From: a virus
Reading direction: 5' to 3' (one strand)
Virus record (IMG/VR): IMGVR_UViG_3300020371_000004
Location: 1 to 64,000 of that record
Length of the DNA stretch: 64,000 nt
The notes below the pieces were generated by a model. It had not been told where the DNA came from. It ran no database searches and saw nothing but the letters and a program-made list of their open reading frames with translations. The translations under genes were made by a program, and so were the position numbers. Shown in pieces: positions 32,160-53,516 of the stretch. Positions within the stretch are counted from its first letter, which is position 1. Each line of letters begins with the position of its first letter.

Positions 32160-34358
32160 ATGCCAGCACTTAATGTAGGAATAAATTCAACCTTTGAGCA
32201 GCAAAGACTTGTCATCAATACACTTGCAGTTGATGTCAATTCTATCCTTACTGGAACTGCTGGAATAGCAACGTACTCACCATTGTCGGGAATTGCATCT
32301 AATGCAGTTCGTCTAGATGGTCAGTTACCAAGTTATTACCTGGATTATGGGAACCATACTGGAACACCAACCAGTTTATCTCAGTTTACTAATGATGTAG
32401 GTTTCATTACTTCATTTAACATTAACAGTGGAGTCACTGTTAGTGGTGTCATGACTGCTACAACATTTGATGGTAATCTGACAGGTAATGTAACTGGAAC
32501 ACTTTTTGGTAATGTTAGTGGTGGTAATGTAAGTGGTACTTTATCTGGTGATGGAAGCAATATTTCTAACCTAAATGCTTCTAGGATAACATCAGGCACC
32601 TTGAGTGCTTCACATATTCCTGTACTCAACCAGAATACTTCTGGAACTGCTGCAGGACTAAGTGGTAACCCAACTATCGGAATTACTTCTTTAACGGCAT
32701 CAGGGAGGATTGTAGGTGCTGCTGTAGATAACGTAATTCCATTCTTATATTCCGATTTAAGTGACTTGCCAAGTGCAAGTAGTTATCATGGTGCATTTGC
32801 TCACGTTCATAACACAGGTTCAGCATACTTTGCACATGGTGGAAACTGGGAAAAACTCGTAAATTATAATACTGATTCAGATAATATATCCATTGGTGGT
32901 ACATTATCTGCTGTTGGTGATGTCGTAGTTACTGGTATTGTAACTGCTACTAGATTCTTTGGAGATGGTTCTCAACTAACAGGTGTTGGTGGTGGATCTG
33001 GTGGACTACAGATTTATGATGAATATAACCTAATTGGTACAGCATCTTCACTTAACTTTGTTGGTGGAAATATATCAGCAAACTTTGTTAATGGTTATGT
33101 TACAGTTAACGTAACTGATACTGATACAAATTATTGGGAAAGAAATAGTTCTGGAATTAGTACAACATCATATCTTGGTATTCAGACCTCAAATCCAAAC
33201 TATTCATTGGAAGTTGGTCCATATGGAAGTACTGGTATTGATTTTTATGTTCATGGAAGAAGTTGGTTTAATAATCAAATCAATACCCCAATTGTTGGTT
33301 TAGGAACACTTTCAATTAACTCGGAAACTAGGCTTTCTTCTTTACCTAGAATTGTAACATCAGAACTTGCAGTTGGTAACATCTCTACGACTAGAGTTCT
33401 TAACGTTACAGGTGATGCACATATTGGGGCAGGATTAACAGTCCATGGTGAACTTGATATTAATGATGATTTAAGAGTTAAAGATAACAAATATATTACT
33501 GTTGGTGATGGATTTGACCTATCAATTTATCATGATACGATTAATAGTCATATTGCCGACCAGGGAACTGGTAGTCTGATTATTCGTGGTAGTGATGTTG
33601 TAATTAAAAATGCAGCAGACAGCAAAGTATCTGCAGAATTTACAGGTGGTGCAGAAGCAAAACTTTTCTACGATAATTCAGAGAAGTTTTCTACAGTTAG
33701 CACTGGTACAACAACTTATGGTACGCACTTTGCAACAAGATTTGCGGGTGATGGAAGTCTACTAACAGGTGTTATTTCTTCATCAAGTGTTGGTCTCGCA
33801 ATTCAAGGTGCAGGAACTCCAGTTGGTACTGCTACTACATTAAACTTTGTTGGTGCTGGTGTAAATCCAACAGTTACTGGTGGTATTGCAACCATTGATA
33901 TTTCTGCTGCAGTTGGTAGTGCAGGTAGATTTAAGGATGGTACTTCAGGTATACATACAACAGCACCTGCTGTAGGTTTAGGTACAACTAATCCAAAAAC
34001 ACAACTCCAGGTTGGTGATGTTTATGGTATAGAGGTCTATAGTGGTATTACATCAGTCACTGCTGGTGTTGCAACTGATGGTGTAGGTGGATGGACTATT
34101 GCCGATACAGATTTCCTAAGTGTAGATTACAAACTATACTTTAATTACAATGGCACAGTTCAAACCCAGAGAGCATCAGTGATGCATGATGGAACCACAG
34201 CATATGTTCAACCATATGCAATGATGATGACAGGAAATACTGCAGTAATGTCAATTGATGCAGTAATTTCAAATGGACAAGTAATTCCAAGATGGACACC
34301 AGGAACTGGAATAACTGGTATTGTTACATATAGAGTAGTAAGGGAGTCAATGCTATGA
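32160..34358 (+). CDS. tail fibre protein with GDGS repeats, 732 aa
   Basis: The N-terminus (LNVGINSTFEQQRLVINTLA) is probably the attachment part. Then come Gly/Ser/Thr-rich repeats typical of trimeric fibres: VTATRFFGDGSQLTGVGG (about 261-278) and ATRFAGDGSLLTG near 523-535, with a GNLTGNVTGTLFGNVSGGNV stretch in the first third. The last 90 residues (RASVMHDGTTAYVQPYAMMM... TPGTGITGIVTYRVV) form a tip domain also found at the end of the 973-aa fibre downstream. It overlaps the first subtilase gene by ATGA, so the fibre and the protease are translated as a pair. Confidence 0.75.
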   Translation: MPALNVGINSTFEQQRLVINTLAVDVNSILTGTAGIATYSPLSGIASNAVRLDGQLPSYYLDYGNHTGTPTSLSQFTNDVGFITSFNINSGVTVSGVMTATTFDGNLTGNVTGTLFGNVSGGNVSGTLSGDGSNISNLNASRITSGTLSASHIPVLNQNTSGTAAGLSGNPTIGITSLTASGRIVGAAVDNVIPFLYSDLSDLPSASSYHGAFAHVHNTGSAYFAHGGNWEKLVNYNTDSDNISIGGTLSAVGDVVVTGIVTATRFFGDGSQLTGVGGGSGGLQIYDEYNLIGTASSLNFVGGNISANFVNGYVTVNVTDTDTNYWERNSSGISTTSYLGIQTSNPNYSLEVGPYGSTGIDFYVHGRSWFNNQINTPIVGLGTLSINSETRLSSLPRIVTSELAVGNISTTRVLNVTGDAHIGAGLTVHGELDINDDLRVKDNKYITVGDGFDLSIYHDTINSHIADQGTGSLIIRGSDVVIKNAADSKVSAEFTGGAEAKLFYDNSEKFSTVSTGTTTYGTHFATRFAGDGSLLTGVISSSSVGLAIQGAGTPVGTATTLNFVGAGVNPTVTGGIATIDISAAVGSAGRFKDGTSGIHTTAPAVGLGTTNPKTQLQVGDVYGIEVYSGITSVTAGVATDGVGGWTIADTDFLSVDYKLYFNYNGTVQTQRASVMHDGTTAYVQPYAMMMTGNTAVMSIDAVISNGQVIPRWTPGTGITGIVTYRVVRESML

Positions 34359-36949
34359 TTATAGACTGGACTGACGAAGAGAATATTGAAGCACTAAATC
34401 AAGCATATCAAGATGAGATTGCTGAGTTAGAGAAGGTTCCTGATGATCCAACAGCAAGGGTTCAGTATGTTATTGGGTGCGAAAATGCTTCGGATTGGCA
34501 ATATGTCCATCAAGTATTAATCACTGATGGTACTAGTGAAAATATTCTTCCAACAAATTCAATAAATTGTGTAGATGATTGTAAGCATAGTCCCGTAAAA
34601 GGAAGATATATTTTAACTGCTGAGCAAGCAGAAACAATAAAAGAGCACCCAAAAGTTAAATATATTCACCCAGACTTTAGTAGATACCAGGGAACATATA
34701 AACCACCTACACACGAAATTATATGTGCTGCTAAGTACAATAGGTATAACAGTAATAGAAGGCAGTATAGGGATATGCAAGTATCCATGCCATATACACC
34801 TACAGATGCAGAAGCAGGACGTAGTGGATATCAGCTATCTAGGTGTATGCAAGTTGATGACCCTTGGTGGGGTGAAACTGGAACATATCAAACAAAGAAT
34901 GATGTTGTTTTAAATCAAAAAATTCAGCAATATGGTGATGCTTCTGATGTTGATGTAATTGTTACAGATACTGAAGCATGGTATGGACATCCAGAGTTTA
35001 TTAATACCGCAATAAGAAGTACAGCAACTAATGATGGATATAATTCCACTGGTTCTGGTCCTTCAAACTATAGAGGTGGTAATGTTTTACCTGGTAATGG
35101 TTATTGTGATATTTTAGACATTTACTTAGACGCACCATATTACATCGATCCAGATTTCTTTGATAATGACCCAGGAAATAGATTGATAACAAGATTTGAT
35201 GGAACTATGGTTCCTGTTGAATCTGTAGCAAGAAGTTGGTGGTCTAGTAATTCACTATCTTCGAGATCATCAAAGTTTGTAAGTCCAAGTAATGGTGGTA
35301 CTGCCACTGGACTTAACGATTTTGGTGTTATTAATGGTGGTAGTCAATGGACCTCCTATACCAGAGCAAGAAATAATGGTTCAAATAGTGCATATTGCAC
35401 AGGAAGTGGAACTCATGCTACTCAATGTATGGGTGTTTGTTATGGAAGGGGACAAGGATGGGCATATAATGCAAATAAGTGGCATATAAACAATATTGGT
35501 AGCAGTGCTGTTAGTATTGAAGGATCTGCAGATTTAATTAAAGTATTCCACAACTGCAAACCTAATAATCCGTCTTTAGGGACAAAAGACCCAACATTAA
35601 CAAGTAATAGCTGGGGATATCGTTCCACTTCTCACTCTACCGTTTATAGTGCTGGTTCTAATTATGTGTTTTTCAGGCATGGTCAAGGAACTGGTAATGT
35701 AGCTGCAGCATCTGCGTCATATAGTAGCTCATCTACTATGCCAAATTGTCTTAGAACTGTTGGATATTATGGTGATGGTGGTAGAATGAAGGGAGAAATG
35801 CTTCCTAATTCTATGGTGACTGCATGGACTGAACTGGTTGATGCTGGAGTTATCACTGTAGTTGCTGCAGGAAATTCAAACCAAAAGCAAGTTCAACCAA
35901 ATCATCCAGATTTTGATAATTTCTGGACACATAGTGGAACTGGTGGTGGAGGTGGTTCAAATACTAATTTACTTGCGAATACTCATTATGAGTTTAGTGT
36001 TGAATGTTATAACACAATGAACAGACCTGGATTCCCACAGCAGGTTGGTAGACATACAGATTCTAATGGTAACGTTGTACTGAACAAGGTTATTAATATG
36101 GGTGCATTAGATTATCAGTATCAATCAACTGGGCATGAGAGAAAAGTAAATTATAGTGATATGGGTAATGGTATTGATTGTTATGCACCAGCAGATGATG
36201 CTTTAGGTGCAACTAGAGGAAGTTCTGGTGAAGGAATCCACCCAGAGACATATCCTGAACTTTCTGTTACAGCAGTCGATAATGATTTTGGTGGTACAAG
36301 TTCTGCATGTCCAGTAGCAGCAGGATTGATTGCAACTAAACTGCAGTATAACAGGGCATGGTCTTGGAGTGATGTAAAAACTTGGATTCTAAACTTAACC
36401 CAACAAAATACAAGTAAGTTTTATGTTGGAAATGAAGCAACAACAGTTACTTCTAATGATTGGCAAGATACCGTCCATCTTAACGGAGGTAGTCCTATCG
36501 TCATATATGACAAGGAAACAGGACAAGAGCCTTCTGGTGGTTTTGGAAGTATTCAATCTAATACTTATTCAATCACAGAAGGAGCTACAATTAATGTAAC
36601 AATACATGCAGTTGGTGTTTCTGCTGGAACATATTATTATTCTATCGAAAGTATTCCAGGTGAAGATTACACAGTTCCAGGAGATGGATTTAGTCCTACA
36701 GGAACAACAGGCAATATTTCTTATAATGGTACTGGAAATATTACCTTTAACATAGTTACAACCACTGATTTAATTACAACTACAGACGCTAGAATAAGAA
36801 TTAGAATTCGGGAAAATGCTGTTAACGGACCAATCGTTGCAACTACTGACGATATTATAGTTACTGGAACATTAGACCCAGTACCATTCCAGTTTGCGTC
36901 TGGTGGAGCTCAGTGGGGTGGTGGTGTCATAGTGACTTTTCAACCGTAA
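34355..36949 (+). CDS. subtilisin-like (S8) protease, tail-associated, paralogue 1, 864 aa
   Basis: Residues about 37-110 resemble a subtilase I9 propeptide: VQYVIGCENASDWQYVHQVL, then GRYILTAEQAETIKEHPKVK. The catalytic domain has Asp205 (VIVTDTEAWYGHPEF), His354 (GTHATQCMGVCYG), oxyanion Asn507 (VVAAGNSN) and Ser649 (GGTSSACPVAAGL), so the full triad is intact. A conserved motif YYIDPDFFDNDPGNRL lies between Asp and His. Residues about 730-845 form a Calx-beta-like beta sandwich (SITEGATINVTI ... ARIRIRIRENAVNGP). There is no signal peptide, so export is unlikely and incorporation into the virion is more plausible. It is translationally coupled to the fibre upstream. Substrate may be host surface protein or the fibre itself; this is not known. 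Confidence 0.85.
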   Translation: MIIDWTDEENIEALNQAYQDEIAELEKVPDDPTARVQYVIGCENASDWQYVHQVLITDGTSENILPTNSINCVDDCKHSPVKGRYILTAEQAETIKEHPKVKYIHPDFSRYQGTYKPPTHEIICAAKYNRYNSNRRQYRDMQVSMPYTPTDAEAGRSGYQLSRCMQVDDPWWGETGTYQTKNDVVLNQKIQQYGDASDVDVIVTDTEAWYGHPEFINTAIRSTATNDGYNSTGSGPSNYRGGNVLPGNGYCDILDIYLDAPYYIDPDFFDNDPGNRLITRFDGTMVPVESVARSWWSSNSLSSRSSKFVSPSNGGTATGLNDFGVINGGSQWTSYTRARNNGSNSAYCTGSGTHATQCMGVCYGRGQGWAYNANKWHINNIGSSAVSIEGSADLIKVFHNCKPNNPSLGTKDPTLTSNSWGYRSTSHSTVYSAGSNYVFFRHGQGTGNVAAASASYSSSSTMPNCLRTVGYYGDGGRMKGEMLPNSMVTAWTELVDAGVITVVAAGNSNQKQVQPNHPDFDNFWTHSGTGGGGGSNTNLLANTHYEFSVECYNTMNRPGFPQQVGRHTDSNGNVVLNKVINMGALDYQYQSTGHERKVNYSDMGNGIDCYAPADDALGATRGSSGEGIHPETYPELSVTAVDNDFGGTSSACPVAAGLIATKLQYNRAWSWSDVKTWILNLTQQNTSKFYVGNEATTVTSNDWQDTVHLNGGSPIVIYDKETGQEPSGGFGSIQSNTYSITEGATINVTIHAVGVSAGTYYYSIESIPGEDYTVPGDGFSPTGTTGNISYNGTGNITFNIVTTTDLITTTDARIRIRIRENAVNGPIVATTDDIIVTGTLDPVPFQFASGGAQWGGGVIVTFQP

Positions 36950-36984: not shown

Positions 36985-39480
36985 ATGTTTGACGAAGAAA
37001 TTCTAGAAACACCTGGGTTTCAGGAAGAAAAAGACAAACTTCCTAAAGAACCAGAAGGTGATGTAGATAAGGAATATGTTGTCGTTTGCCATACCAATGA
37101 AGGATGGCAAACGATTCATAGTCTCATCATGGAAGAAAATACTTCCGAGGACTATGTTCCTAATACATCAAAGAAATGTTGCAATGATAAGAAACATAGT
37201 CCTACTAGAGGAATCTATATGATGACAGACTCTGAGGCAGAGGAACTCAGGTCCCATGAATTAGTTGAGACTGTAAATATTAATCGTGCTGCATATCCAG
37301 GAACATATAGAATTGATCCTGCTTTAATGAAAGATGGAATTGGACCACAATATAGGTATGGTTCAAATGTTAAACACCAAAAAGACCCTACTTTTCCATC
37401 TACTCCTACATTAGCAGATTTAAATCGTGCTGGATATGCTATCTTAAGACATTCCTCGTATCAAGATCCTTGGTATGGAAGTTCAGCATCTACAGTAATT
37501 AATGATAGAGCTCAGCATTATGGTGCTGGTGAAGATACTGATATCATTACTGTTGACGAAGATATGTGGTTTGGACATATCGAATTTCAAAATAATACAG
37601 GAACTGGTCCAACTAACTACAAGGGAGGAAATGTTCTTCCAGGAAATGGAACTTGCGATTTGCTATGTTTGGTGAATGATTCACCATATTATATTGACCC
37701 AGATTTCTTTGATGCTGATCCAGCAAATAGATTAGAAACTAGATGGGATGGAACAATAGTCCCAACGGAAGCTGCTGCTAATGGTTGGTGGCGTAATAAC
37801 TCATTGTCATATAGGTCATCAAAGTTTGTAAGTCCGTCTAATGGTGGTACTGCTACTGGTAATAATGATTTCGGCACTATACTTGTTTCATCTAATTATA
37901 CTAGAGCAAGACAAAATGGATCCAATACTGCATATCAAACCAGTGGTGGAAGTCATTCAACACCATGTGCTTCCTTAGCATATGGGAGAAGTTATGGATG
38001 GGCATATAATGCAAATAAGTGGCATATTGCCCTTATGGGTTCTTATGCTGTAGATGAAGAAGATATTTTTGATATGATAAAAATATTTCATCAGTGTAAA
38101 CCAATAAATCCCACATACGGAAATAGAGACCATACATTATGTACAAATAGTTATGGTTATAGGTCTTATGCTCCACCATCTAGTGGATATTACTATTATG
38201 AGACCCCCGATGATGGTACTGGAGGAGTTTACTATTCGTCAAAACCTAAATTTCTTAGTAATTTTTATCAAAGTTATATTAGATCTGAGATGCTCCCCAA
38301 TTCATTACTAACTGCTGGTAATGAAATGATTGATGCTGGTGTTATTTTTGTGTGTTCTGCAGGAAATACTAGACAAAAACTAGTGAAGGCAACCCACCCA
38401 TCTTGGTATAACTATGTTTCTACTAGTAATAACCACACTATGGCAGATACACAATTCAGTTCTGGTGGATTCAATTGGGTGAAATCTGTAAATAGACAAG
38501 GATTTCCTGGTCAAATTGGTAAAGTTGGTGTTGGAACAAATACTGTTTATAGAACTTTTCCAATTGGATGCCTAAGTGGTGGCCACCGTTCAGATGGAAG
38601 AGAGCAAAGAGCAGTTTACAGCAATATGGGTAATCTAATTGTTGGATTTGCTGCTGGTGATAGGCAAGCAGCAGCATGTGATGACAACGCTGGTTCTCGT
38701 AAGAATCGTTATGATGCTTATTATACTCTTAATGGAGTTCAATCTGTAGAGTCTGAAGATAGAGAATTTAATGGTACAAGTGCTGCATCTCCAGTAGCTT
38801 GCGGATTCTTAGCAACTAAAATGCAGCATAATAGGACTTGGGACTGGCAAGATTTGATGAACTGGATTGAAAGTTTGACTCCAGTCAATAGTTCAGAATT
38901 TTATTATGGTACTGAATCAACTACTGCTACAGATAATAACTGGGATGATGATTACAGTATAGAAGGTCATCCTGGATATGTATTTTATGATGCAACAACT
39001 GGTGGAAATGAATCTTCTTATAGGTGGGATGCTGCTTCTGGTAATGTTGCTACACAAAATCCTAAAGAAGTAACAGAAGGTGGTACTGCAACTGTCACAC
39101 TCTCCACTAATGCACCTGACGGAACTTACTATTACGTTGTTGAGAAAGATGACCACCAATCTGATATTCAAGCAAGTGATTTTGATACAGGAGGAGGTTT
39201 CCTGGGAATGTATGGTGCATTCTCTGTTTCTGGTGGTGCAGCAACACTTAATTTCAAAATTGCAGCTGATGCAGTTGCAGTAAATGAAACAGAATCATTT
39301 AGAGTTAGAGTTAGGAGTGGTAGCACTACAGGACCTGTTGTTGCAACTTCACATGATTTTATAATTTTAGATTCTTCCTCTGGAGGTGGTGGTGGTGGTG
39401 GAGGAACACCAGCAACACCTTTCGTTTTTGCATCTGGTGACGGTCTGACATTTACTGGTGTCAGCATAAGTTTCTCTTGA
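36985..39480 (+). CDS. subtilisin-like (S8) protease, paralogue 2, 831 aa
   Basis: Same plan as paralogue 1. The propeptide-like part has EYVVVCHTNEGWQTIHSLIM and RGIYMMTDSEAEELRSHE. The catalytic residues are Asp191 (IITVDEDMWFGHIEF), His324 (GGSHSTPCASLAYG), Asn461 (VCSAGNTRQK) and Ser599 (NGTSAASPVACGF). Asp is followed by Glu-Asp rather than the usual Thr-Gly. The shared YYIDPDFFDADPANRLETRW motif is present. It ends with the same Calx-beta-like module (about 685-800), then a short Gly-rich linker and a hydrophobic end. It has its own late promoter upstream and another right at its stop codon. Location and substrate are inferred as for paralogue 1. Confidence 0.85.
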   Translation: MFDEEILETPGFQEEKDKLPKEPEGDVDKEYVVVCHTNEGWQTIHSLIMEENTSEDYVPNTSKKCCNDKKHSPTRGIYMMTDSEAEELRSHELVETVNINRAAYPGTYRIDPALMKDGIGPQYRYGSNVKHQKDPTFPSTPTLADLNRAGYAILRHSSYQDPWYGSSASTVINDRAQHYGAGEDTDIITVDEDMWFGHIEFQNNTGTGPTNYKGGNVLPGNGTCDLLCLVNDSPYYIDPDFFDADPANRLETRWDGTIVPTEAAANGWWRNNSLSYRSSKFVSPSNGGTATGNNDFGTILVSSNYTRARQNGSNTAYQTSGGSHSTPCASLAYGRSYGWAYNANKWHIALMGSYAVDEEDIFDMIKIFHQCKPINPTYGNRDHTLCTNSYGYRSYAPPSSGYYYYETPDDGTGGVYYSSKPKFLSNFYQSYIRSEMLPNSLLTAGNEMIDAGVIFVCSAGNTRQKLVKATHPSWYNYVSTSNNHTMADTQFSSGGFNWVKSVNRQGFPGQIGKVGVGTNTVYRTFPIGCLSGGHRSDGREQRAVYSNMGNLIVGFAAGDRQAAACDDNAGSRKNRYDAYYTLNGVQSVESEDREFNGTSAASPVACGFLATKMQHNRTWDWQDLMNWIESLTPVNSSEFYYGTESTTATDNNWDDDYSIEGHPGYVFYDATTGGNESSYRWDAASGNVATQNPKEVTEGGTATVTLSTNAPDGTYYYVVEKDDHQSDIQASDFDTGGGFLGMYGAFSVSGGAATLNFKIAADAVAVNETESFRVRVRSGSTTGPVVATSHDFIILDSSSGGGGGGGGTPATPFVFASGDGLTFTGVSISFS

Positions 39481-42446: not shown

Positions 42447-45437
42447 ATGAACGTACCATCTTCAACAGAAAAGAACGTATACACTGTCGGTTGTGAGACA
42501 GAAGAAGATTGGATTTATATTCGTGATGCTTTACTTGACGAAAATTGGTTAGATGATGAAGAAATACCAACTGAAGCATGTGAGTGTGTAAGTGATAAAA
42601 AAGTAGGACACACTAGAGGCATCTTTATGTTGACAGATGCCGAAGCAGAGCAACTTAAACAGCATCCTAAGGTTGAGTATGCTCATCATGATAGTTCTTA
42701 TTACCAAGATTATTATAGACCACCTCTTGAGGAAAGATACTTTGGTTTAGATTATGGTCAAAAGTATCAGTGGAGATGGGAAAACAGAGTATTAATTGAA
42801 AGAGCAAATCAGTCTCAATCAAATTTCTATCCAGATCATAAAACACCACGTCAAATCAACAAAGCTGGTTGGGAATTAGCTCGTCCAGCAGCAAAAAGAG
42901 ACCTTTGGCATTATCTTAAAGAGGCTAATGGTTTAAGTGGTGATGTAACTGCATATTCTATCAGTGCTAGATTGGCAAGAACAACAACTGGTGAAGATGT
43001 TGATATGATTGCCTGTGATACAGGAACTTGGTGTAGTCATCCAGAATTTATCAATAATCTTCCTGGTGTTGAGTATCCAAGAAATTATAAAGGTGGTAAT
43101 GCTTTAGACCCTAATGGTGGTTCTGCAGTTCTAGACTTATTTTTACATGGTCCATACTATATTGACCCAGAATGGTTTGATGCTGACCCAGCAGATAGAT
43201 TAACAGTAAGATGGGATGGGACTGTAATTCCGATAAGATACTGGGCTCAGAAATGGTGGTCTGATAGTGACAGTCGTTCTCCTCAATTTAACAATGTTGA
43301 TGAAGTTAGCATTGGTTATAGTTACTATGAACAATGGTCTATCGGTGATTTATATGGTAATGGTGGTGCAAGTTCTCATGGTACTTCAGTTGCCTCTCAG
43401 ATGTATGGAAGAACTCATGGATGGGCATATAATGCCAATAAATGGGCAATAAGAACAGATATAACTTCATTTGATGATATGTTTGATGCGATAACTATAT
43501 TTCATCAAAATAAACCAGTAAACCCAAAGCACGGAAATAGAAACCCAACAATATGTAATCATAGTTGGGGTTATGTTAATCCCGAAATGGGTGGTGGATA
43601 TCAGTATAGAAGTGGACACCACTGGTTTAGACCAAGTAGTGCAACTGTTACTACTACTGCTACTGAATGGTCTATTGCTCCCTCACCAACATCTTGGTAC
43701 ACTGCAGTTCAGCCAAACCATTCACAAAATGCAAAAGAACAGTGGTTTAGGTATCTTGGTTATTATGGATACGGTTCTACATTCCCATGTGAACTACTTT
43801 CCCATGGTGATTTAACTGCTTCCACAAATTGTTTTAATTCTGGAGTTATTCATGTTGTTGCTCCAGGAAATTCAAACCAGAAAATGGTATTTTCTGACCA
43901 TGAAGATTATAACAATCATTTTGCTCCAAATCGAGATGATGCAACTAGATCATTTAATAGTAACACACTTACACTCAGTGGTAAGACTTATTATAGGTCA
44001 ACGAACAGAATAGGTTATCCTGGTCAATCTGGTAGGTATTATGATGAAGGAAAGTATAAGTACAAAGCACTAATTGTTGGTGCTCTTTCTGATATGTGGG
44101 GGACTGATAATGGAGTCTATAAAGAGTTTAAAGTAGACTATAGCAACATGGGTGAAGTTGTTGATTGCTACTGTGCTGCACATGACACACAGGCAGCAAC
44201 CAATAAGGAGTTTGGTGATAATAGTAGTTGGAGAAGAGCAGATAATGAAGCTTTCTATGAATTATATAATGTTGGTGCTGCATCTACTTATACCTCAAGT
44301 TCGTATATAAGTGGTTTCAAGGCATATACAGATACAGCAACCAATAGAGGTGGTGACCCAAATGCAAATAAGTATTGGGGTCTCAGTAGTCCAAATGATT
44401 GGCCTGATGTTTTAGGTCAAGGTCGTCAAAACCATGGAAGTAGTAGAGTTGTAGTTGGTCCCAACTCTTGCGGTAGAGGATTGGGAAGACCCGAAACAAT
44501 TTTATTTAAATCAAATACAGGTCATCGTTTTGCAACTGGTGGTAGTCTTAATTACCCAACAGTAACTTACACTGGAATTGCCGCAACTTTCCGTGGTCGT
44601 GTTGGTATTCAAACTACAGAACCAGAACCAGCAACAAACTATTCAACTCTTGCTGATTGGAGATGTTATAGATGCGATCTACCATTTACTTTTGATTATT
44701 GTGGTGTTACTACCAATAGAGTTGGAATTTCTCCATGGGGAGTTCTTGAAATTGGTGGTGAAGGTTCACATAGTAAGACTAGTACCGAGGTTTCTTGGAT
44801 ACACCATGGTGGAGTTCCAAAGTGGGGACAGATTGCCCTTAATCATGGGCATGTAAGTCCTTATGTAGGTATTCGTACAGAGGTTTTAGGAGTAGCTCCA
44901 AATAGACAATTCTGGGTTAGATATGAGTCTAAAGATGGCAGTGGACATACCAGTGGTGATATGGACACTGTATGGGAGGCAGTTTTTACTGAAAATTCTG
45001 GTGTAGTAGACTTCCATGTAGAAACTAATACTCACATAGGGGAGACTACCCAGACTGTAGATAACGACTACTTCCATGATGATTGGTTTAGTGGAACAAG
45101 TTCTGCTGCACCTATTGCTTGCGGTATCGTTGGAACTAAATTGGAAGTTAATAGAACATGGGATTATGCTGATGTGAAGAACTGGGTTACTACAAAAGTT
45201 GGTATTTCAAGTAGTGATGAGTTTTATTATGGTGATGAAGCACCAAGTGGAACTAATGCACGCAATGATATTTCTTGGGGAACGGTAACCAGTCTTCATG
45301 GAGGTAGTCCAATTATATTATGGAATGCACCAACTGACAATGACCCACCTATTGAAAATCAATTACAGATTGATATTGGTAGTAATTTAACCATTGAAGG
45401 TGGAACCAACAACTTAAATATTAAATACGAACAATAA
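42447..45437 (+). CDS. subtilisin-like (S8) protease, paralogue 3 with large insertion, 996 aa
   Basis: The propeptide-like N-terminus has NVYTVGCETEEDWIYIRDAL-type sequence and TRGIFMLTDAEAEQLKQHPK. Catalytic residues: Asp191 (IACDTGTWCSHPEF, the canonical DTG), His311 (SSHGTSVASQMYG, nearest of the three to the classical HGTxVA), Asn475 (VVAPGNSNQK) and Ser885 (SGTSSAAPIACGI). Asn to Ser spans 410 residues, against about 140 in the other two, so some 270 residues are inserted (about 590-870). The insert is rich in Gly, His and Trp (LNHGHVSPYVGIRTEVLGVA) and may be a binding domain. There is no Calx-beta-like end; the tail is short (LQIDIGSNLTIEGGTNNLNI). It follows the 973-aa fibre by 15 bases. 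Confidence 0.85.
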   Translation: MNVPSSTEKNVYTVGCETEEDWIYIRDALLDENWLDDEEIPTEACECVSDKKVGHTRGIFMLTDAEAEQLKQHPKVEYAHHDSSYYQDYYRPPLEERYFGLDYGQKYQWRWENRVLIERANQSQSNFYPDHKTPRQINKAGWELARPAAKRDLWHYLKEANGLSGDVTAYSISARLARTTTGEDVDMIACDTGTWCSHPEFINNLPGVEYPRNYKGGNALDPNGGSAVLDLFLHGPYYIDPEWFDADPADRLTVRWDGTVIPIRYWAQKWWSDSDSRSPQFNNVDEVSIGYSYYEQWSIGDLYGNGGASSHGTSVASQMYGRTHGWAYNANKWAIRTDITSFDDMFDAITIFHQNKPVNPKHGNRNPTICNHSWGYVNPEMGGGYQYRSGHHWFRPSSATVTTTATEWSIAPSPTSWYTAVQPNHSQNAKEQWFRYLGYYGYGSTFPCELLSHGDLTASTNCFNSGVIHVVAPGNSNQKMVFSDHEDYNNHFAPNRDDATRSFNSNTLTLSGKTYYRSTNRIGYPGQSGRYYDEGKYKYKALIVGALSDMWGTDNGVYKEFKVDYSNMGEVVDCYCAAHDTQAATNKEFGDNSSWRRADNEAFYELYNVGAASTYTSSSYISGFKAYTDTATNRGGDPNANKYWGLSSPNDWPDVLGQGRQNHGSSRVVVGPNSCGRGLGRPETILFKSNTGHRFATGGSLNYPTVTYTGIAATFRGRVGIQTTEPEPATNYSTLADWRCYRCDLPFTFDYCGVTTNRVGISPWGVLEIGGEGSHSKTSTEVSWIHHGGVPKWGQIALNHGHVSPYVGIRTEVLGVAPNRQFWVRYESKDGSGHTSGDMDTVWEAVFTENSGVVDFHVETNTHIGETTQTVDNDYFHDDWFSGTSSAAPIACGIVGTKLEVNRTWDYADVKNWVTTKVGISSSDEFYYGDEAPSGTNARNDISWGTVTSLHGGSPIILWNAPTDNDPPIENQLQIDIGSNLTIEGGTNNLNIKYEQ

Positions 45438-45457: not shown

Positions 45458-46183
45458 ATGGCTAATAAAAGTTTTTCCGTTAGAGAATTTGAGATTGTTG
45501 GAAATTCTGGCAATTCTAAATTAACATCTACCGAGTATATTGAACTTAATACACCTAGAGTTGCTATTAGCACTGACTTAACTGTTGGTGGAACAGTGAG
45601 GAGTGATATAAGTCTTCCAGGACATAGTTTAACTGCTCTTCAGGCAAACATAACAGGGGTTACAACCATGTCCTCTGTCAGTGTTGTTGGTGTATGTACG
45701 GCAGCATCTTTCTCTGGTTCTGGAGTAGGTTTAACTGCGTTATCTGCACCGCAACTTACTGGTTCTTTACCTGCACTAGATGCATCATCACTTACCAATA
45801 CTGTTGGAACTATCACTGCTGGAGCAGGAGTAACAATAAATCAAGGGACGGGAACAGTACATGTATCCCAAGGAATTACTTATGTTGTTGGTGGTAACAC
45901 TAGTGGATATACAATGGTTGGTCCAGGTGTTTTGCAGACATCTTTAAATCCAACCATTTATTTACATAGAGGATTTGTATATATTTTTAACAATACCACT
46001 GGTTCAGGTCACCCATTCCGTATTCAATATACTGGTACAACAACTGGATACGGTAGCACATGGGTAACTGGAAATACAGCAGGGACTCAGATGTTTGTTG
46101 TTCCTCATGATGCTCCAAGCACTCTTGAATATCAATGTACTATCCACCCTGGAATGAAAGGGACATTTGTTATACCTTCTTGA
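45458..46183 (+). CDS. short fibre protein ending in a cupredoxin domain, 241 aa
   Basis: Residues 1-110 repeat the N-terminus and fibre motifs of the 973-aa protein (ELNTPRVAISTDLTVGGTV; TAASFSGSGVGLTAL). Residues about 150-241 form a cupredoxin-like beta sandwich. The strand PTIYLHRGFVYIFNNTTGSG leads to His185 (GHPFRIQ), and YQCTIHPGMKG supplies Cys227, His230 and Met233. The C-x2-H-x2-M spacing and a His about 40 residues earlier are those of amicyanin-type blue copper proteins. A type-1 copper site is therefore expected; binding is inferred. Its place after the fibres and proteases suggests a tail-tip location. There is no signal peptide, unlike periplasmic cupredoxins. Confidence 0.75.
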   Translation: MANKSFSVREFEIVGNSGNSKLTSTEYIELNTPRVAISTDLTVGGTVRSDISLPGHSLTALQANITGVTTMSSVSVVGVCTAASFSGSGVGLTALSAPQLTGSLPALDASSLTNTVGTITAGAGVTINQGTGTVHVSQGITYVVGGNTSGYTMVGPGVLQTSLNPTIYLHRGFVYIFNNTTGSGHPFRIQYTGTTTGYGSTWVTGNTAGTQMFVVPHDAPSTLEYQCTIHPGMKGTFVIPS

Positions 46184-46394: not shown

Positions 46395-49300
46395 ATGGCT
46401 CTCTTTCAATACAACTTAGGCAGTGAAATTCCGTTTAGTAGTATTGATTATGGATTTATTAATGAAACACCTACAACCCCATCGGAAGACCACGGAGATT
46501 TAGCAGTAGTTGCTCAGACGACTATTGCTCCAGATGATATTGTCTCCACATATAGTGGTAGTCTTAGCACCGTAACTATTACTAATACTGGAAGTGGTGT
46601 TGGTGAGTTTGGTGGATTTAATGTAGCAAGACATATTAAGTTTACTGGAGCTGGTACAAGAGCATTTACTTTTGCATTTGATACAAGTAATCGTGAAGAG
46701 ATAACATTTTCAGTTATTCGTGGCACTGATTCAAATGGTGGTGAACTTCCTGATAGTGGTGAAGACCTTCTATTTGAATATTCAACTAATGGTGGAAGCA
46801 CTTGGACTGGAACCCAAGTTTTAGCTGCATACAATGATACTGCATTTAATAATTTAAATGATGTTACTGTAACACTACCTACAGCAGCAAGAGTATCTAA
46901 TGCACAGTTTAGAATTAGACAAGCAAGTAATAGTGGTTCTAATTATGATCAATGGGGTGTAACTGCAGTTACTATTGGTGGTGAGATACTTACTACTGAA
47001 GATTATGGATTCTTAACACCTGCAAGGCAGACTGTTCCATACGGTAGACTCAAGATTGTTCAAGAGTTTGCTGACGACAGACTACTCAGGAATAGTGTTG
47101 GTGGTATTGAATTTACCCTTGGTGGTAAAGCAAATATCTTTACTCTACCAATTCATGTTGGTAGAGGATTCTTGCGTCTTGATGGCAAGGAGTTCACAAG
47201 AATTACTCTGCGTTACATCGGAAGTGGCACATTCAGCCACTTCGGTGGATCTGCAGAGGCAGTATCGAATGCAACACCAGCACAAACACCACTCTTCACG
47301 GTTGCTGGTGTTGCTACCGAAAAATTTGGAAAAGGAAATTATACAGCAACAGGTCAGTTCTCCGCATTCACGGGTGCCGCAGAGGTCGTATCCATCAGTG
47401 GAGCAACAAGACAAGACCTATTCAGAATTAGAGGTGCAGCACACGATACTCACACAGAGAATTACGTTGGTGAGGGTAGACTATTTGCTGTACAAGGTGC
47501 TTCAGAAGCATTTAAAGTCGAAGAGAAGGCAAGTGGTCTATTCTCCTTTAAAGGCACCTCCAAAGAAACTATACAATCAAATAACGTTGTATCTGTTGAG
47601 ACTCAGATATCTGGTTCTGGTTCAGAGTCAATTACACCTGCGGTACGACCAGGTTCTGGAGAGGCAACGTTTAGTGGTGCAATTACAAATGAGCATGTAA
47701 GGTTCCATCAATTTGGTACTGGTACATTATCTTCCTTCAGTGGAACTGCAGAAACAAGCAACAGAGTTGTATTCAGTTACAATGAAAGTTCTGTTGTTAA
47801 TGCAGAAACTCTTGATTATGGACTTATTACTGAAGGATTTGCGGATGAACCAATCAGTAATTACGCAAATGTACCAATTAGTACACTTGCAAATGAAGTA
47901 GTATCTGAGTTTGGAAGATATCCAAATAGAGAGGAATTTGGTCATATTTCTATTGACCCAGAGCAATCTATTCATACTCCTGGATATAACCATGTTGATT
48001 ATGGTTATATTAATACCACCAATAGATTCCCATTCGGTAAGTTCCAATCTGAAGATGGTGGAGACTTAACTTATGAGTCTGCACAAATTGGAATCAGAGT
48101 CAGACCCATTACACCTGGTCCAACACTCCGACTTGAAGGTACTGCAGGTATCTTTACACTACCAATTCATAAAGGTGAAGGATACTTCAGATTTGAAGGT
48201 AAGTCTGTTGTTAGAATTAGAGCAGTCTACTACGGATCTGGTAAGTTCAGTAACTTCGGTGGTAGTGCTGAAGCAACTTCAAATGCTGATTCTGGAAGGA
48301 AGATTCTCTTCAGAGTTGCTGGTGATGCACATGCTGTTGTGCGTTTTGTTTATATTGGAGAAGGTTCTCTCTTTACATTTGTTTCCAAGACAGAATCCAC
48401 TTCAGTCACAGAAAAACCACAAGCTCTTTACAAGTTTACTGGTTCTGCAGTCGAAAAGAATACCGAGAACTATGTTGGTACAGGTTCTCTATTTACATTT
48501 GTTTCTTCTACAGATTCTACTGTTATCAACAGTGCAGCATCTGGTCTCTTTACCTTCAAGGGTTCGGGTATCGAGAAGAATACAGAGAACTATGTTGGTC
48601 AAGGTTCTTTGTTTACATTTGTTTCCAAGTCGGAAGCAACTGTTGTTCAGTCTGTCGCACAAACACTATTCAGATTTACAGGTGCGATTACAAACGAGCA
48701 TGTAAGATTCCACCAGTTTGGTACTGGAACATTCTCTGCCTTCAGTGGAACTGCATATCACGAAAGAGTTGCATTCGATTATAATGAAGACTCTATTGTT
48801 AATGTCAGACATGATAATTATGGATTAATTACTGAAGGTAGTGCTGACCAACCAATTTCCGACTTTGCTAACGACCCAATTAGTCTTTACGCTAATGAGC
48901 AAGTCTCCGAGTTTGGTAGATTTGCGAATAGAGAGGACTTTGGTCACATTTCTATTGACCCAGAGCAATCTATCAACACTCATGGTCATCGTCATGATGA
49001 TTATGGTTACATTAATACCACCAATAGATTCCCATTCGGTGGATTCACCTTTGAAGATGAAAATGAAGGTGTTGATACTGCAGGAATTAGATTCCAACTC
49101 AGAGCACCTACATCAGGTACTGAACTTAGACTTCAGGGTCAAGCTGAAATTTATGTACTCCCAGTACACATCGGTGGTGGTATCACCAGATTTGCTGGAG
49201 ATGCAACTATCAGAATCAGAGCCGTCTACTACGGATCTGGTAAGTTTAGTAACTTCGGTGGTAGTGCCGAGGCAATTTCCAATGTTGACTCTGGAAGACA

Positions 49301-52300
49301 AGTTCTCTTCAGAGTTTCTGGTGATTCCCATAATACTATACGTTTCGTCGAGGTTGGTACAGGTTCTCTATTCACCTTCGTATCCAAGACGGAATCCACT
49401 TCAGTTACAGAAAAACCACAAGTTCTCTACAAGTTTACTGGTTCTGCAGTCGAGAAGAACACAGAATCTTACGTTGGAAAGGGTTCTCTATTTACATTTG
49501 TTTCTTCTACAGAATCCACTGTTATCAACAGTGCAGCATCTGGTCTTTTCTCTATCAAAGGTTCAGCAGAAGAAAAGAATACAGAAGTATATGTTGGAAA
49601 AGGTTCTTTGTTCACATTTGTTTCCAAGTCGGAAGCAACTGTTGTTCAAAGCAAAGCTCAAGGATTGTTCAAGATTTCTGGTGCAATCACAAACGAGCAT
49701 GTCAGATTCCATCAGTTTGGTACTGGTACATTCTCTACATTCAGTGGAACTGCCTATCACGAAAGAGTTGCGTTTGATTACAACGAAGATTCTATCGTTA
49801 ATGTTGACCATGAGAATTATGGTTTCATTACTCAAGGTAGTGCTGACCAACCAATTTCTGACTTTGCTAACGACCCAATTAGTCTCTATGCTAATGAGCA
49901 GGTCTCTGAATTCGGAAGATTCTCCAATAGAGAAGACTTTGGTCATATCTCTATCGACCCAGAGCAATCCGTCAACACTCATGGTTGGAATCATATTGAT
50001 TATGGTTACATTAATACCACGAACAGATTCCCATTCGGTGGATTTACCTTCGACGATGGCAGTGTTACATCTGCAACTTCCAAGTTACAGGTAAAACTAC
50101 CTGTCGAAGGACCTGTATTCCAAATCAGTGGTGTTTCGGACAATCGTGTACTACCAGTTATTATTGGTGGTGGATTCACCAGACTTGGTGGAGATGCACT
50201 TGTCAAGATTACCGCAGTTTGGTACGGATCTGGTTCAGTATTCTCCTTTGTTGGTGGTGCAGAAGCAACTTCATCTACTGTACCAACAGAAGCACCACTT
50301 CTCGACTTCAATGGTACTGCAAGGGAGAGATTTGGAAAGGGCAACTACGATGCCAGTGGTACATTCTCCACATTCTCTGGTGCTGGAGAAACTGCAATTA
50401 TCAGCAACAAAGCAGACGTTCTCTTCGATGTTAACGGTACTGCTATTGAGAAGCATACCGAAAATTACGTTGGAGAAGGTTCTCTCTTCGGATTTGTCTC
50501 TGCTACAGAATCTACTGTTATCAACAGTGCAGCATCTGGACTCTTCAAGTTCCAAGGTGGAGCAATCGAGAAGAACACCGAGAACTATGTTGGTACTGGT
50601 TCTCTGTTTGCATTCGACAGTTCTACAGAAGCAACGGAAGTTCTCAGCACTGCATCTGGACTCTTCAAGTTCAGTGGTGCTGCAACCAATGTTCAGGTCA
50701 GGTTCCACCAGTTTGGTACTGGTTCACTCTTTGGATTCAATGGTGGAGCAGAGTCTGTCACATTCGACTATAGCTGCCATGGTTCGATTGTTAACATTGG
50801 GGCAGATAATTATGGATTCATTACTGAATCTGTTGTTGACCAGACAATTACTGATTATGCAAATGAGCAGATTAGCACTTATGCGAATGAGGTAGTATCT
50901 GACTTTGGTATTGATCCTAATCAGGAATCCTTTGGACATATCTCCATCGATCCTGAGCAATCCATCAATACTCATGGTTGGAATCATGAAGATTATGGAC
51001 TTATCACCGAACCTGAAGGTGGTAATAAGTTCCCATGTGTCCATCTCAAGTTTGGTGGAGAAAGATTCAACGAATCCAGAGTCTTTGGATATGCAGGTTC
51101 TGGTACATTCTCTACATTCTCTGGTGCTGCAGAAGCAAGAGCAATTGTACCTCCTTCTAAGGGTCTATTTAAAGTTCATGGTTCTGGTGGTATTATTGCT
51201 TCCCTATCCCATATTGGATCTGGTGAAATCCACATTGGTGATTCTGGAATTGATAAGTTTATCAAGGTTCAATTCTCCCCACCAACCACTGGTGTTCTAT
51301 TCAAGTTCTCTGGTGGACTGGATGTCAGTGGTGTCAACGAGAGACCATCCGACCTCAAGGCAACATTTGCAGAAGTTGGACATGCAAAACTCCGCATTGC
51401 AGGAGATGCATTTACTACCTTCCATCTTGGACATATTGGAAGTGGTCAACTCGATATCAATGGCAATGCTATCGAGAAGCATACCGAAGCATACGTTGGT
51501 TCTGGTTCTCTCTTCGCATTTACTGGTGGGGCAGAAAGTTTCACTGTCGATCTTCCAGAATTTGCAACTCTATTCAGATTTGCTGGAAATGCAGTCGAGA
51601 AGAATACCGAGAACTACGTTGGTACGGGTTCTCTGTTCACCTTTGTTTCCAAGACAGAATCTACAACTTCTGCGGAACAACCAAAAGTACTCTTCAATAT
51701 CGAAGGTGCTTCTGTCAACAGAATCCTATTCCATTACTACGGTACTGGAAACTTCTCCACATTTGGTGGTGCTGCAGAAGCAAGAGCAGTCACCAAGGAA
51801 GCAGGTGGTCTGTTCACATTCAGTGGCAACGCACCAGAATCCATCACTCCAGCACCACATATTGGTTCTGGTTCTCTGTTTACATTTGTTGGCAAGACAG
51901 AAGCATTTGTCGCAAGCGACGACTTGGTTGCACCACCACTATTCAAGATTGGTGGAGATGCAATCATTGGATTCTCTCTTGGTATTATTGGTCGTGGTGG
52001 ACTCGATGTTCTCCAGAAAGTTACCAAACTCGATGTTGAAGGTAAGAACAGATTCGTTGGTGCTCAAGAAAGAAGAGCAATCAACAATCCTGCTTCTGTA
52101 CTCTTCAGTATCGACGGAAACGTCAAAATCTTCTTTGTCTTCCAAGAAACTGGTGGTGGATTTACCAGAGTTGCTGGAGAAGCATTCACTGAAGTTACAC
52201 CTAGACATACTGGTCGTGGTAAGACTTCTCTACATGGTGAGGTCACCATGTCTGCTTCCCTATCTCATATTGGATCGGGAACAATCTTCGGATTCGTTGG

Positions 52301-53516
52301 TGGTGCAGAATCTCGTGCAATAGACCTCCCACCACAAAAGGGACTACTCAGATTTGCTGGTACTGCACCAGAAGTTTATATCCGTGGACCAGAACTTGGA
52401 GATGTATCTCTCCAACTCAAGTCTTCCGACGTATTTGTCAGATTCAAGCTCAGCCATATTTCGGATGGTTCCAGAATCCATGTCGATGGAGATGGAGCAG
52501 AAGCAAGAGTCAGACCATACGAAGGTTCTGGTACACTCTTTGGATTCAGTGGTGCAACGGAAGCTCGCACAATCGACCTCCCACCACAGGTTCCAACACT
52601 CTTCAGATTTGCTGGAAACTCTGGAGAAAGAGAAACCAATGCACATCTTGGTTCTGGTTCACTCTTTGGATTCGATTCTGCAACAGAAGTCAGAGTTGCT
52701 TCCCCAGAACTTTCTGGACTATTCAAAGTTCAGGGCACTGGTGCAGAAGCAAAAACCAAGGTATTTACTGGTTCTGGTGTATTCGATCTCAACACCAAGA
52801 CAGACGGACTGGATACTCTTGGCAAGCAAGTTTATATCAGTGCTCCAGAATCTACAACTGTCAATCCACCAGAACATACTCAGGTATTCACTTTCTCTGG
52901 TTCTGCTGTTGCTACAGAAGACAGAGCATATCAGGGAACTGGAACACTATTTGGATTTACAGGAGCAGCAGAATCCAGAGCAGTTGTACCAGATTCTACA
53001 GGTCTATTCAAGGTTCAGGGTTCTGGAGAAGAATCCAGAAGCAGAATTTACTCTGGAACAGGAAGAGTATTTGGATTTACTGGTGGTGCAGAGGCAACAG
53101 CAGTTACCGAAAATGTACCAGGTTCTCTCTTCAAATTTACTGGAGAAGTTACTGTTGTTCGCAGATTCCCACCACATGTTGGTTCTGGAACACTATTCTC
53201 CTTCACTGGTGCAACAGAATCTCAAACAATTGCACCACCAGTTGCAACACTCTTCGAGTTCAACGGAAACGTTGCAGAATCCAGAAGCAGAGTTTACACA
53301 GGTTCTGGAACACTCGTTACATTCAAGTCTGCAACTATCGCAAGACGTGTTCCATACGATGTTACTCAGGGACTTTTCAAACTTGTTGGAGCACTCAACG
53401 AATCTTTTGTTCCTTCTGGATACGTTGGTACGACTGGAGTTCAATTCATTGGGGCATCTACAGATAGAAGGATTGAATTTGAGTCACCAAAACCAACACA
53501 AATATACATCGTCTAA
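46395..53516 (+). CDS. giant nested-repeat virion protein, 2373 aa
   Basis: The N-terminus is ALFQYNLGSEIPFSSIDYGF. Residues about 45-195 resemble a reelin-type beta-sandwich with an Asp-box-like EDLLFEYSTNGGSTW. The rest is repetitive. Short units of about 36 residues (KNTENYVGTGSLFTFVS... TEST... INSAASGLFKF) alternate with a longer block (ADQPISDFANDPISLYANEQ, FGHISIDPEQSINTHG, DYGYINTTNRFPFG). The block recurs about every 1000 bases, starting near 47770, 48772, 49773 and 50763. No enzyme motif. It is probably a long extended fibre or adhesin. It is preceded by a late promoter and a structured leader. The C-ending codon use over the repeat part creates long false ORFs in other frames. Confidence 0.8.
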   Translation: MALFQYNLGSEIPFSSIDYGFINETPTTPSEDHGDLAVVAQTTIAPDDIVSTYSGSLSTVTITNTGSGVGEFGGFNVARHIKFTGAGTRAFTFAFDTSNREEITFSVIRGTDSNGGELPDSGEDLLFEYSTNGGSTWTGTQVLAAYNDTAFNNLNDVTVTLPTAARVSNAQFRIRQASNSGSNYDQWGVTAVTIGGEILTTEDYGFLTPARQTVPYGRLKIVQEFADDRLLRNSVGGIEFTLGGKANIFTLPIHVGRGFLRLDGKEFTRITLRYIGSGTFSHFGGSAEAVSNATPAQTPLFTVAGVATEKFGKGNYTATGQFSAFTGAAEVVSISGATRQDLFRIRGAAHDTHTENYVGEGRLFAVQGASEAFKVEEKASGLFSFKGTSKETIQSNNVVSVETQISGSGSESITPAVRPGSGEATFSGAITNEHVRFHQFGTGTLSSFSGTAETSNRVVFSYNESSVVNAETLDYGLITEGFADEPISNYANVPISTLANEVVSEFGRYPNREEFGHISIDPEQSIHTPGYNHVDYGYINTTNRFPFGKFQSEDGGDLTYESAQIGIRVRPITPGPTLRLEGTAGIFTLPIHKGEGYFRFEGKSVVRIRAVYYGSGKFSNFGGSAEATSNADSGRKILFRVAGDAHAVVRFVYIGEGSLFTFVSKTESTSVTEKPQALYKFTGSAVEKNTENYVGTGSLFTFVSSTDSTVINSAASGLFTFKGSGIEKNTENYVGQGSLFTFVSKSEATVVQSVAQTLFRFTGAITNEHVRFHQFGTGTFSAFSGTAYHERVAFDYNEDSIVNVRHDNYGLITEGSADQPISDFANDPISLYANEQVSEFGRFANREDFGHISIDPEQSINTHGHRHDDYGYINTTNRFPFGGFTFEDENEGVDTAGIRFQLRAPTSGTELRLQGQAEIYVLPVHIGGGITRFAGDATIRIRAVYYGSGKFSNFGGSAEAISNVDSGRQVLFRVSGDSHNTIRFVEVGTGSLFTFVSKTESTSVTEKPQVLYKFTGSAVEKNTESYVGKGSLFTFVSSTESTVINSAASGLFSIKGSAEEKNTEVYVGKGSLFTFVSKSEATVVQSKAQGLFKISGAITNEHVRFHQFGTGTFSTFSGTAYHERVAFDYNEDSIVNVDHENYGFITQGSADQPISDFANDPISLYANEQVSEFGRFSNREDFGHISIDPEQSVNTHGWNHIDYGYINTTNRFPFGGFTFDDGSVTSATSKLQVKLPVEGPVFQISGVSDNRVLPVIIGGGFTRLGGDALVKITAVWYGSGSVFSFVGGAEATSSTVPTEAPLLDFNGTARERFGKGNYDASGTFSTFSGAGETAIISNKADVLFDVNGTAIEKHTENYVGEGSLFGFVSATESTVINSAASGLFKFQGGAIEKNTENYVGTGSLFAFDSSTEATEVLSTASGLFKFSGAATNVQVRFHQFGTGSLFGFNGGAESVTFDYSCHGSIVNIGADNYGFITESVVDQTITDYANEQISTYANEVVSDFGIDPNQESFGHISIDPEQSINTHGWNHEDYGLITEPEGGNKFPCVHLKFGGERFNESRVFGYAGSGTFSTFSGAAEARAIVPPSKGLFKVHGSGGIIASLSHIGSGEIHIGDSGIDKFIKVQFSPPTTGVLFKFSGGLDVSGVNERPSDLKATFAEVGHAKLRIAGDAFTTFHLGHIGSGQLDINGNAIEKHTEAYVGSGSLFAFTGGAESFTVDLPEFATLFRFAGNAVEKNTENYVGTGSLFTFVSKTESTTSAEQPKVLFNIEGASVNRILFHYYGTGNFSTFGGAAEARAVTKEAGGLFTFSGNAPESITPAPHIGSGSLFTFVGKTEAFVASDDLVAPPLFKIGGDAIIGFSLGIIGRGGLDVLQKVTKLDVEGKNRFVGAQERRAINNPASVLFSIDGNVKIFFVFQETGGGFTRVAGEAFTEVTPRHTGRGKTSLHGEVTMSASLSHIGSGTIFGFVGGAESRAIDLPPQKGLLRFAGTAPEVYIRGPELGDVSLQLKSSDVFVRFKLSHISDGSRIHVDGDGAEARVRPYEGSGTLFGFSGATEARTIDLPPQVPTLFRFAGNSGERETNAHLGSGSLFGFDSATEVRVASPELSGLFKVQGTGAEAKTKVFTGSGVFDLNTKTDGLDTLGKQVYISAPESTTVNPPEHTQVFTFSGSAVATEDRAYQGTGTLFGFTGAAESRAVVPDSTGLFKVQGSGEESRSRIYSGTGRVFGFTGGAEATAVTENVPGSLFKFTGEVTVVRRFPPHVGSGTLFSFTGATESQTIAPPVATLFEFNGNVAESRSRVYTGSGTLVTFKSATIARRVPYDVTQGLFKLVGALNESFVPSGYVGTTGVQFIGASTDRRIEFESPKPTQIYIV
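47770..51033 (+). repeat. four ~1-kb tandem repeat units in the giant gene
   Basis: A conserved block of about 265 bases (encoding YNEDSIVN... to NTTNRFPFG) begins near 47770, 48772, 49773 and 50763. Units 2 and 3 are the most alike and unit 4 is the most degenerate. Each unit is filled with several 108-111-base sub-repeats. These are likely sites of recombination and of assembly error. Confidence 0.75.

Follow-up and report, generated by a model that had tools for sequence, protein, structure and literature searches.

Cupredoxins differ in the details of their metal sites: Gln naturally replaces the axial Met in stellacyanin, and rusticyanin has a longer Cys-His-Met loop. The phage-tail metal sites known to us, iron or zinc in spikes and fibers, are structural. 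Cyanophages do carry a cupredoxin gene, petE, and in the accessible part of PMC3037559 the true phage petE (T4-GC 225) is a gene of 324-369 bases that is given a role in host metabolism. Literature searches on cupredoxins or type 1 copper in phage tails and on plastocyanin-like domains in cyanophage baseplates gave no description of the domain reported here, and the matches to searches on cyanophage cupredoxins or virion cupredoxin domains concern Borgs and a plant virus. The literature searched does not describe a conserved putative type-1 site on virion appendages, nor the retention of such a redox-type copper site on the attachment structures of hundreds of phages, although cupredoxins themselves are well known. 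The domain is within reach of standard tools, since one record bears the label 'PetE' and one P-SSM2 fiber passes the Pfam score.

A short fiber-type protein ends in a predicted cupredoxin domain

The window analyzed is a 64,000-base stretch (positions 1 to 64,000) of the 83,361-base virus record IMGVR_UViG_3300020371_000004. The gp6 protein of this virus is 60-63% identical to those of the Synechococcus phages S-SCSM2R, Sf-FS3 and S-SSM7. The ORF of interest lies within a structural-gene cluster (Table 1), and its coordinates and length are as given in a preliminary description made from the sequence. The residues proposed there as copper ligands were found in the contexts GHPFRIQ (His185) and YQCTIHPGMKG (Cys227, His230 and Met233), the latter having the C-x2-H-x2-M spacing. 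The N terminus that the protein was said to share with the 973-residue fiber is indeed present, but the similarity is modest (22 of 62 identities, E 2e-6 in a single BLASTP comparison).

Table 1 Positions of the cupredoxin ORF, its parts and its upstream neighbor in the window
Feature	Position	Strand	Evidence
ORF, short fiber-type protein with cupredoxin domain, 241 residues	45458-46183	+	PHROG 677 (tail), residues 96-240, E 1.5e-35
N-terminal fiber part, residues 1-135	45458-45862	+	BLASTP against N terminus of 973-residue fiber
Predicted cupredoxin domain, residues 136-241	45863-46180	+	AlphaFold2, Foldseek, VIA, alignments of domain copies
His185 codon, putative copper ligand	46010-46012	+	His in 281 of 285 distinct rows (matches listed)
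Cys227 codon, putative copper ligand	46136-46138	+	Cys in 283 of 285 distinct rows (matches listed)
His230 codon, putative copper ligand	46145-46147	+	His in 282 of 285 distinct rows (matches listed)
Met233 codon, putative axial ligand	46154-46156	+	276 Met, 8 Gln and 1 Ile in 285 distinct rows (matches listed)
Subtilisin-like (S8) protein directly upstream	42447-45437	+	PF00082, 37.8 bits (cut-off 21.8); PHROG 9158

The structure prediction proposed as a check in the preliminary description gave a well-modeled cupredoxin domain. AlphaFold2 run on a 67-row alignment of the domain produced nine strands with a mean pLDDT of 91.9 and a pTM of 0.84, in keeping with the Greek-key beta-sandwich of about eight strands typical of the superfamily. 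Each of the 20 PDB chains that Foldseek matched at E<=0.001 is a nitrite reductase, plastocyanin, amicyanin, rusticyanin or laccase, and the top VIA-align match of the domain model was residues 24-132 of 2dv6 (Z 10.7; 93 residues superposed with an rmsd of 2.2 A and 24% identity). The full-length model built from 22 sequences had a pLDDT of only 64.0 and its N-terminal half is unreliable (residues 68-138 are mostly below 50 in the monomer model), as may be expected if a trimeric fiber was folded as a monomer.

Searches at the sequence level pointed the same way. Using the single window protein, phmmer found one PDB sequence at E<=10, the copper nitrite reductase 2vmj (E 0.003), a variant into which an amicyanin loop was introduced. 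With a profile of 18 diverse copies, 19 PDB sequences matched at E<=0.1, and every one is an amicyanin, plastocyanin or copper nitrite reductase. A profile of 67 copies matched 54: 51 copper proteins of the cupredoxin superfamily and three ankyrin chimeras. Other off-family matches came from single-sequence searches (titin and cohesin, each with E near 0.8, and cytochrome f with E 0.76). Family models also point to cupredoxins, although the window protein itself falls below both cut-offs: the window domain scores 13.5 bits to Pfam PF00127 (Copper-bind) against a gathering score of 21.2, and the protein scores 19.1 bits to the NCBIfam amicyanin equivalog TIGR02657 against 110.2. Weak TIGR02657 matches were seen in 12 of the 18 family members of the first alignment, and a P-SSM2 fiber having two of the domains reaches 23.3 bits to PF00127 over the whole protein, above the 21.2 cut-off. 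Note that a Pfam scan of the 18-member alignment also gave weak matches to unrelated families (e.g., At5g54830 in 6 of 18). A profile search of the virus record found no second cupredoxin domain.

Together with the ligand conservation given below, the fold model and the PDB matches back the original call of a cupredoxin domain with an amicyanin-like loop and a type-1 ligand set at the end of a fiber protein. These data support the assignment of the C-terminal part of the ORF as a cupredoxin domain bearing a putative type-1 copper ligand set.

Which residue serves as the first His ligand depends on the register of the alignment. Alignments to amicyanin and 2vmj place phage Pro186 on the Pro that precedes their copper His, so that Phe187 rather than His185 falls at the His position. 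In the alignment of the second P-SSM2 domain with rusticyanin, GHPFWI pairs with GHSFDI, His on His. Multicopper oxidases, too, carry His-Pro at the type-1 ligand. At the position favored by the amicyanin and 2vmj alignments, 87 of the 90 clusters have Phe, Leu or Met, whereas the His185 position is His in 281 of 285 rows, and His185 is therefore taken as the first putative ligand. In the model Cys227 ends a strand, His230 and Met233 lie in the next loop, and His185 stands just before a strand. Pro follows the first His in 277 of the 285 rows from the matches listed. By these alignments the His-Pro pair is a mark of the phage cupredoxin family, the corresponding pairs being His-Asn in amicyanin and His-Ser in rusticyanin.

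The putative copper ligands are conserved and are lost together

The sample, drawn from 340 sources, comprised 404 domain matches distributed over 381 ORFs, among the matches listed (the best 80 per scan), and is tilted to close relatives of the queries. Removal of 14 matches gapped at the first His or the Met and merging of identical rows left 285 distinct rows, a set that favors four-ligand copies because the collecting profile was built from copies having all four ligands. Among the matches listed, 273 of the 285 distinct rows carry the complete set of four ligands, as do 83 of the 90 clusters formed at 80% identity, the representatives of which have a mean pairwise identity of about 40%. 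When 100 columns are ranked by conservation, those of the ligands come third to sixth, and a Tyr and the Pro that follows the first His stand above or level with them. In the rows listed, the His, Cys, His and axial Met or Gln of a candidate type-1 site are conserved. The preliminary description had named a lack of His or Cys conservation in phage homologues as grounds for abandoning the assignment; instead, the three residues were kept in 281, 283 and 282 of the 285 rows. This conservation matters because C-x2-H-x2-[MQ] alone has 12 occurrences across the six reading frames of the window (two of these end in M). The short motif is weak evidence by itself, and it is the conservation that argues that the copper-site signature is real.

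Twelve rows are exceptional: eight have only the Met to Gln change, one lacks the first His alone (L322), and three have lost at least two of the His, Cys and His residues (Asp-Ser-Asn-Met in L237, Asp-Ser-Asn-Ile in L337 and Arg-Cys-Phe-Met, also in L337). Independent loss would predict 0.09 rows with at least two losses against the three observed, a statistic that ignores relatedness (two of the rows share a contig). Joint loss of the ligands, with Met to Gln as the main single change, is as expected of one metal site. The ORFs L237:3686-4294 and L337:4634-6286, in which Asp, Ser and Asn replace His, Cys and His but the remaining sequence pattern is kept, offer natural metal-free controls. 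The stellacyanin-like Gln is found in L072:1688-4681, L096:2270-4720 and six similar loci of a second large-protein family.

The domain is common in marine cyanophages

The preliminary description considered such a ligand set unusual on a viral appendage. This does not hold: tblastn of the window protein matched 321 of 50,697 phage records, of which 249 are named Synechococcus, 50 Cyanophage, 19 Prochlorococcus and three Marine virus, and the domain is common in marine cyanophages. The T7-like (Autographiviridae) phages P-GSP1 and P-SCSP2 are among the matched records. For scale, the gp6 of the window matches 373 Synechococcus-named and 61 Cyanophage-named records, sets that were counted separately from those of the domain. 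A query of another domain type also matched one record named Actinomycetia. Outside the phage records, 84,980 species genomes were scanned, and of 133 candidate stretches one proved to be a relative. This match (L339, PAWX01000033.1) is preceded directly by an S8 ORF and stands on a contig assigned to a gammaproteobacterial MAG, which is probably a misbinned cyanophage contig.

Phage S-PM2 has no intact copy in bases 1-188000 of its 196280, in which no [YF]xC-x2-H-x2-[MQ] occurs; the domain is therefore not essential to such phages. Weak profile matches were found in the same 188 kb, the best (E 0.0048) being in ORF S-PM2p089 (L342:8174-11932). This virion structural protein has AHIF ... YYYCATQSQDH without the full spacing, possibly an eroded cupredoxin-like domain to judge from the residues that remain.

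Carrier proteins include a family member found in virions

The domain is C-terminal in gp9-labeled proteins, such as those of P-SSM4, Syn33 and S-ShM2 (PHROG 677, T4-GC 398), and lies near the fiber start in P-GSP1, P-SCSP2 and P-SSM2. In the group to which the virus of the window belongs, the protein that it caps is a fiber. Further carriers are large baseplate-region proteins and proteins having a subtilisin-like domain. Among the matches listed, 21 ORFs have two domains in tandem and one has three. The Syn33, P-SSM4 and S-SZBM1 carriers have Pfam T4_gp9_10_N at their N terminus; it was not found in those of S-ShM2, S-H34 and Bellamy. In S-SSM7 petE lies beside the gp9-labeled gene.

The window protein matches PHROG 677 ('baseplate wedge tail fiber protein connector') only at profile positions 279-409 of 412, whereas window ORF 13903-15318 matches positions 1-140 together with T4_gp9_10_N. 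The split implies that this phage has as two genes the 'gp9' halves that are fused in other cyanophages. Orthology of the window protein to T4 gp9 was considered and rejected, as no Pfam family was found in the window protein and the gp9-type N terminus is in ORF 13903-15318. Databases label homologues gp9, yet the window carrier, judged by its domain make-up, is not a T4 gp9 orthologue.

A homologue has been found in particles. In the accessible part of PMC9146016, the 498-residue 'Baseplate wedge protein' S-SZBM1_206 was identified from nine peptides (24.9% coverage) in CsCl-purified particles. The S-SZBM1 carrier CDS is 1497 bases; its two neighbors, of 1599 and 1848 bases, have the sizes expected for the 532- and 615-residue proteins 207 and 205 of the table in the same part of PMC9146016, and thus a domain-bearing member of the family is a virion protein. 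By analogy, we infer that the window protein is also a virion protein.

Subtilisin-like proteins are recurrent neighbors

Among the 381 cupredoxin ORFs (matches listed), an S8 ORF lies within 200 bases upstream in 87 and downstream in two, and both domains are in the same ORF in seven. The other 285 have neither an S8 neighbor nor a fusion, a count that includes loci ending near the domain. The S8-then-cupredoxin order is also annotated in S-SCSM2R, S-SSM7 and P-SSM2. Single proteins with a subtilisin-like domain and one or two cupredoxin matches are found in L325, L326, L327, L328, L332, L335 and L336.

Three S8 genes (34355-36949, 36985-39480 and 42447-45437), all above the Pfam cut-off, are interleaved with the fiber genes of the window, which is striking for one structural cluster. 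Downstream of the cupredoxin gene, positions 46395-53516 encode a highly repetitive protein of 2373 residues with repeat units such as GSLFTFVSKTEST; its first 535 residues were compared and gave PHROG 11522, of unknown function. Positions 58611-59660 and 60357-61406 encode paralogous glycine- and cysteine-rich proteins of 349 residues (PHROG 35878, function unknown), and such cysteine-rich proteins are odd products of a reducing cytoplasm.

Possible roles of the putative copper site

The reading we favor, with a probability of roughly 55%, is that a type-1 copper cupredoxin caps a short virion fiber of a T4-like cyanophage and acts as a copper-locked, swappable connector or host-contact module that would have no need of electron transfer. 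From the intact ligands and the recurrence of the domain in hundreds of related phages, these cyanophages probably carry copper on their attachment apparatus, and the domain is most likely a copper-locked, swappable appendage module. Marine cyanophages place such modules on gp9 (the tail-fiber connector), on fibers, and on or next to subtilisin-like proteins. The cyanobacterial cytoplasm is kept copper-poor, and the chain may be made there in copper-free form, with copper picked up at lysis or from sea water. Bound copper would then lock the loop bearing Cys227, His230 and Met233 to His185, and the rigid domain could serve as a connector or, given its position, as a host-contact module at the baseplate periphery, perhaps working beside the protease-like protein at the cell surface.

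Alternatively, the site may be redox-active, the fiber copper exchanging electrons with a partner in the host envelope or reporting surface redox and so gating adsorption or the protease. The complete, conserved His2CysMet/Gln set would suit this role, the nearest folds include the electron carriers rusticyanin, amicyanin and plastocyanin, and all 321 named records are cyanophages or marine viruses. However, the 188 kb of S-PM2 (a phage with light-dependent adsorption) have no intact copy, and we consider the idea rather unlikely. Several marine cyanomyoviruses adsorb in a light-dependent manner (accessible part of PMC2984593), and an involvement of the domain in this behavior is weakened by S-PM2. 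A wider version, a redox switch at the host surface on most T4-like and some podoviral marine cyanophages, in which electron flow from the host or the redox state of its surface would alter the oxidation state of the copper and thereby license fiber release, receptor binding or the protease, seems quite unlikely.

Another explanation is that the domain is an ordinary beta-sandwich decoration in which the copper-site sequence is kept for structure and binds zinc or no metal. In the loss variants (DSNM in L237 and DSNI in L337) the remainder of the domain is retained, and the fold is therefore probably able to form even when the site is gone. In contrast, retention of all four ligands in 273 of 285 rows despite about 40% identity would be odd in a metal-free domain, and Met to Gln is a natural axial swap; we find this explanation distinctly doubtful.

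Virions might also take up copper from the lysate or sea water, thereby protecting the particles or exploiting host copper uptake, by analogy with a proposal made for the iron of phage tails. Tandem copies (two domains in 21 ORFs, three in one) are in line with such sequestration or delivery, and several copies of a gp9 or fiber trimer are expected per particle, from T4. We think this very unlikely, since the conserved site is of redox rather than storage type. Finally, an auxiliary plastocyanin for host photosynthesis is hardly credible and was rejected despite the PetE annotation of the S-SCSM2R homologue, because the domain is fused to fiber and gp9 parts, one homologue is in virions (accessible part of PMC9146016) and the true phage petE (T4-GC 225) is a separate gene of 324-369 bases (accessible part of PMC3037559).

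If the copper-locked module does bind copper, cyanophage particles would constitute a mobile oceanic copper pool, and copper or the redox state may influence whether they adsorb. Proteins like that of the window are misleadingly labeled by both 'baseplate wedge tail fiber connector' and 'PetE'.

Comparison with known systems

The closest fold to the phage domain is the N-terminal cupredoxin domain of a three-domain copper nitrite reductase (2dv6, 6tfd), which is part of an enzyme and has no phage or fiber context. Amicyanin shares the Cys-x2-His-x2-Met loop (YHCTAHPFM in a mutant entry) and matches the 67-copy profile from E 5.5e-6, but has Asn after its copper His (PHNVHF) where 277 of 285 phage rows have Pro. 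Rusticyanin resembles the phage domain in fold and in its GHSFDI segment (GHPFWI in the second P-SSM2 domain), although it is a free electron carrier whereas the phage domain is borne on a fiber. The cyanophage PetE (T4-GC 225) belongs to the same superfamily but is encoded by a separate short gene. The gp9-labeled cyanophage proteins have the same C-terminal domain as the window protein, which itself matches just the end of the PHROG 677 profile; the phage of the window encodes its gp9-type N-terminal part elsewhere.
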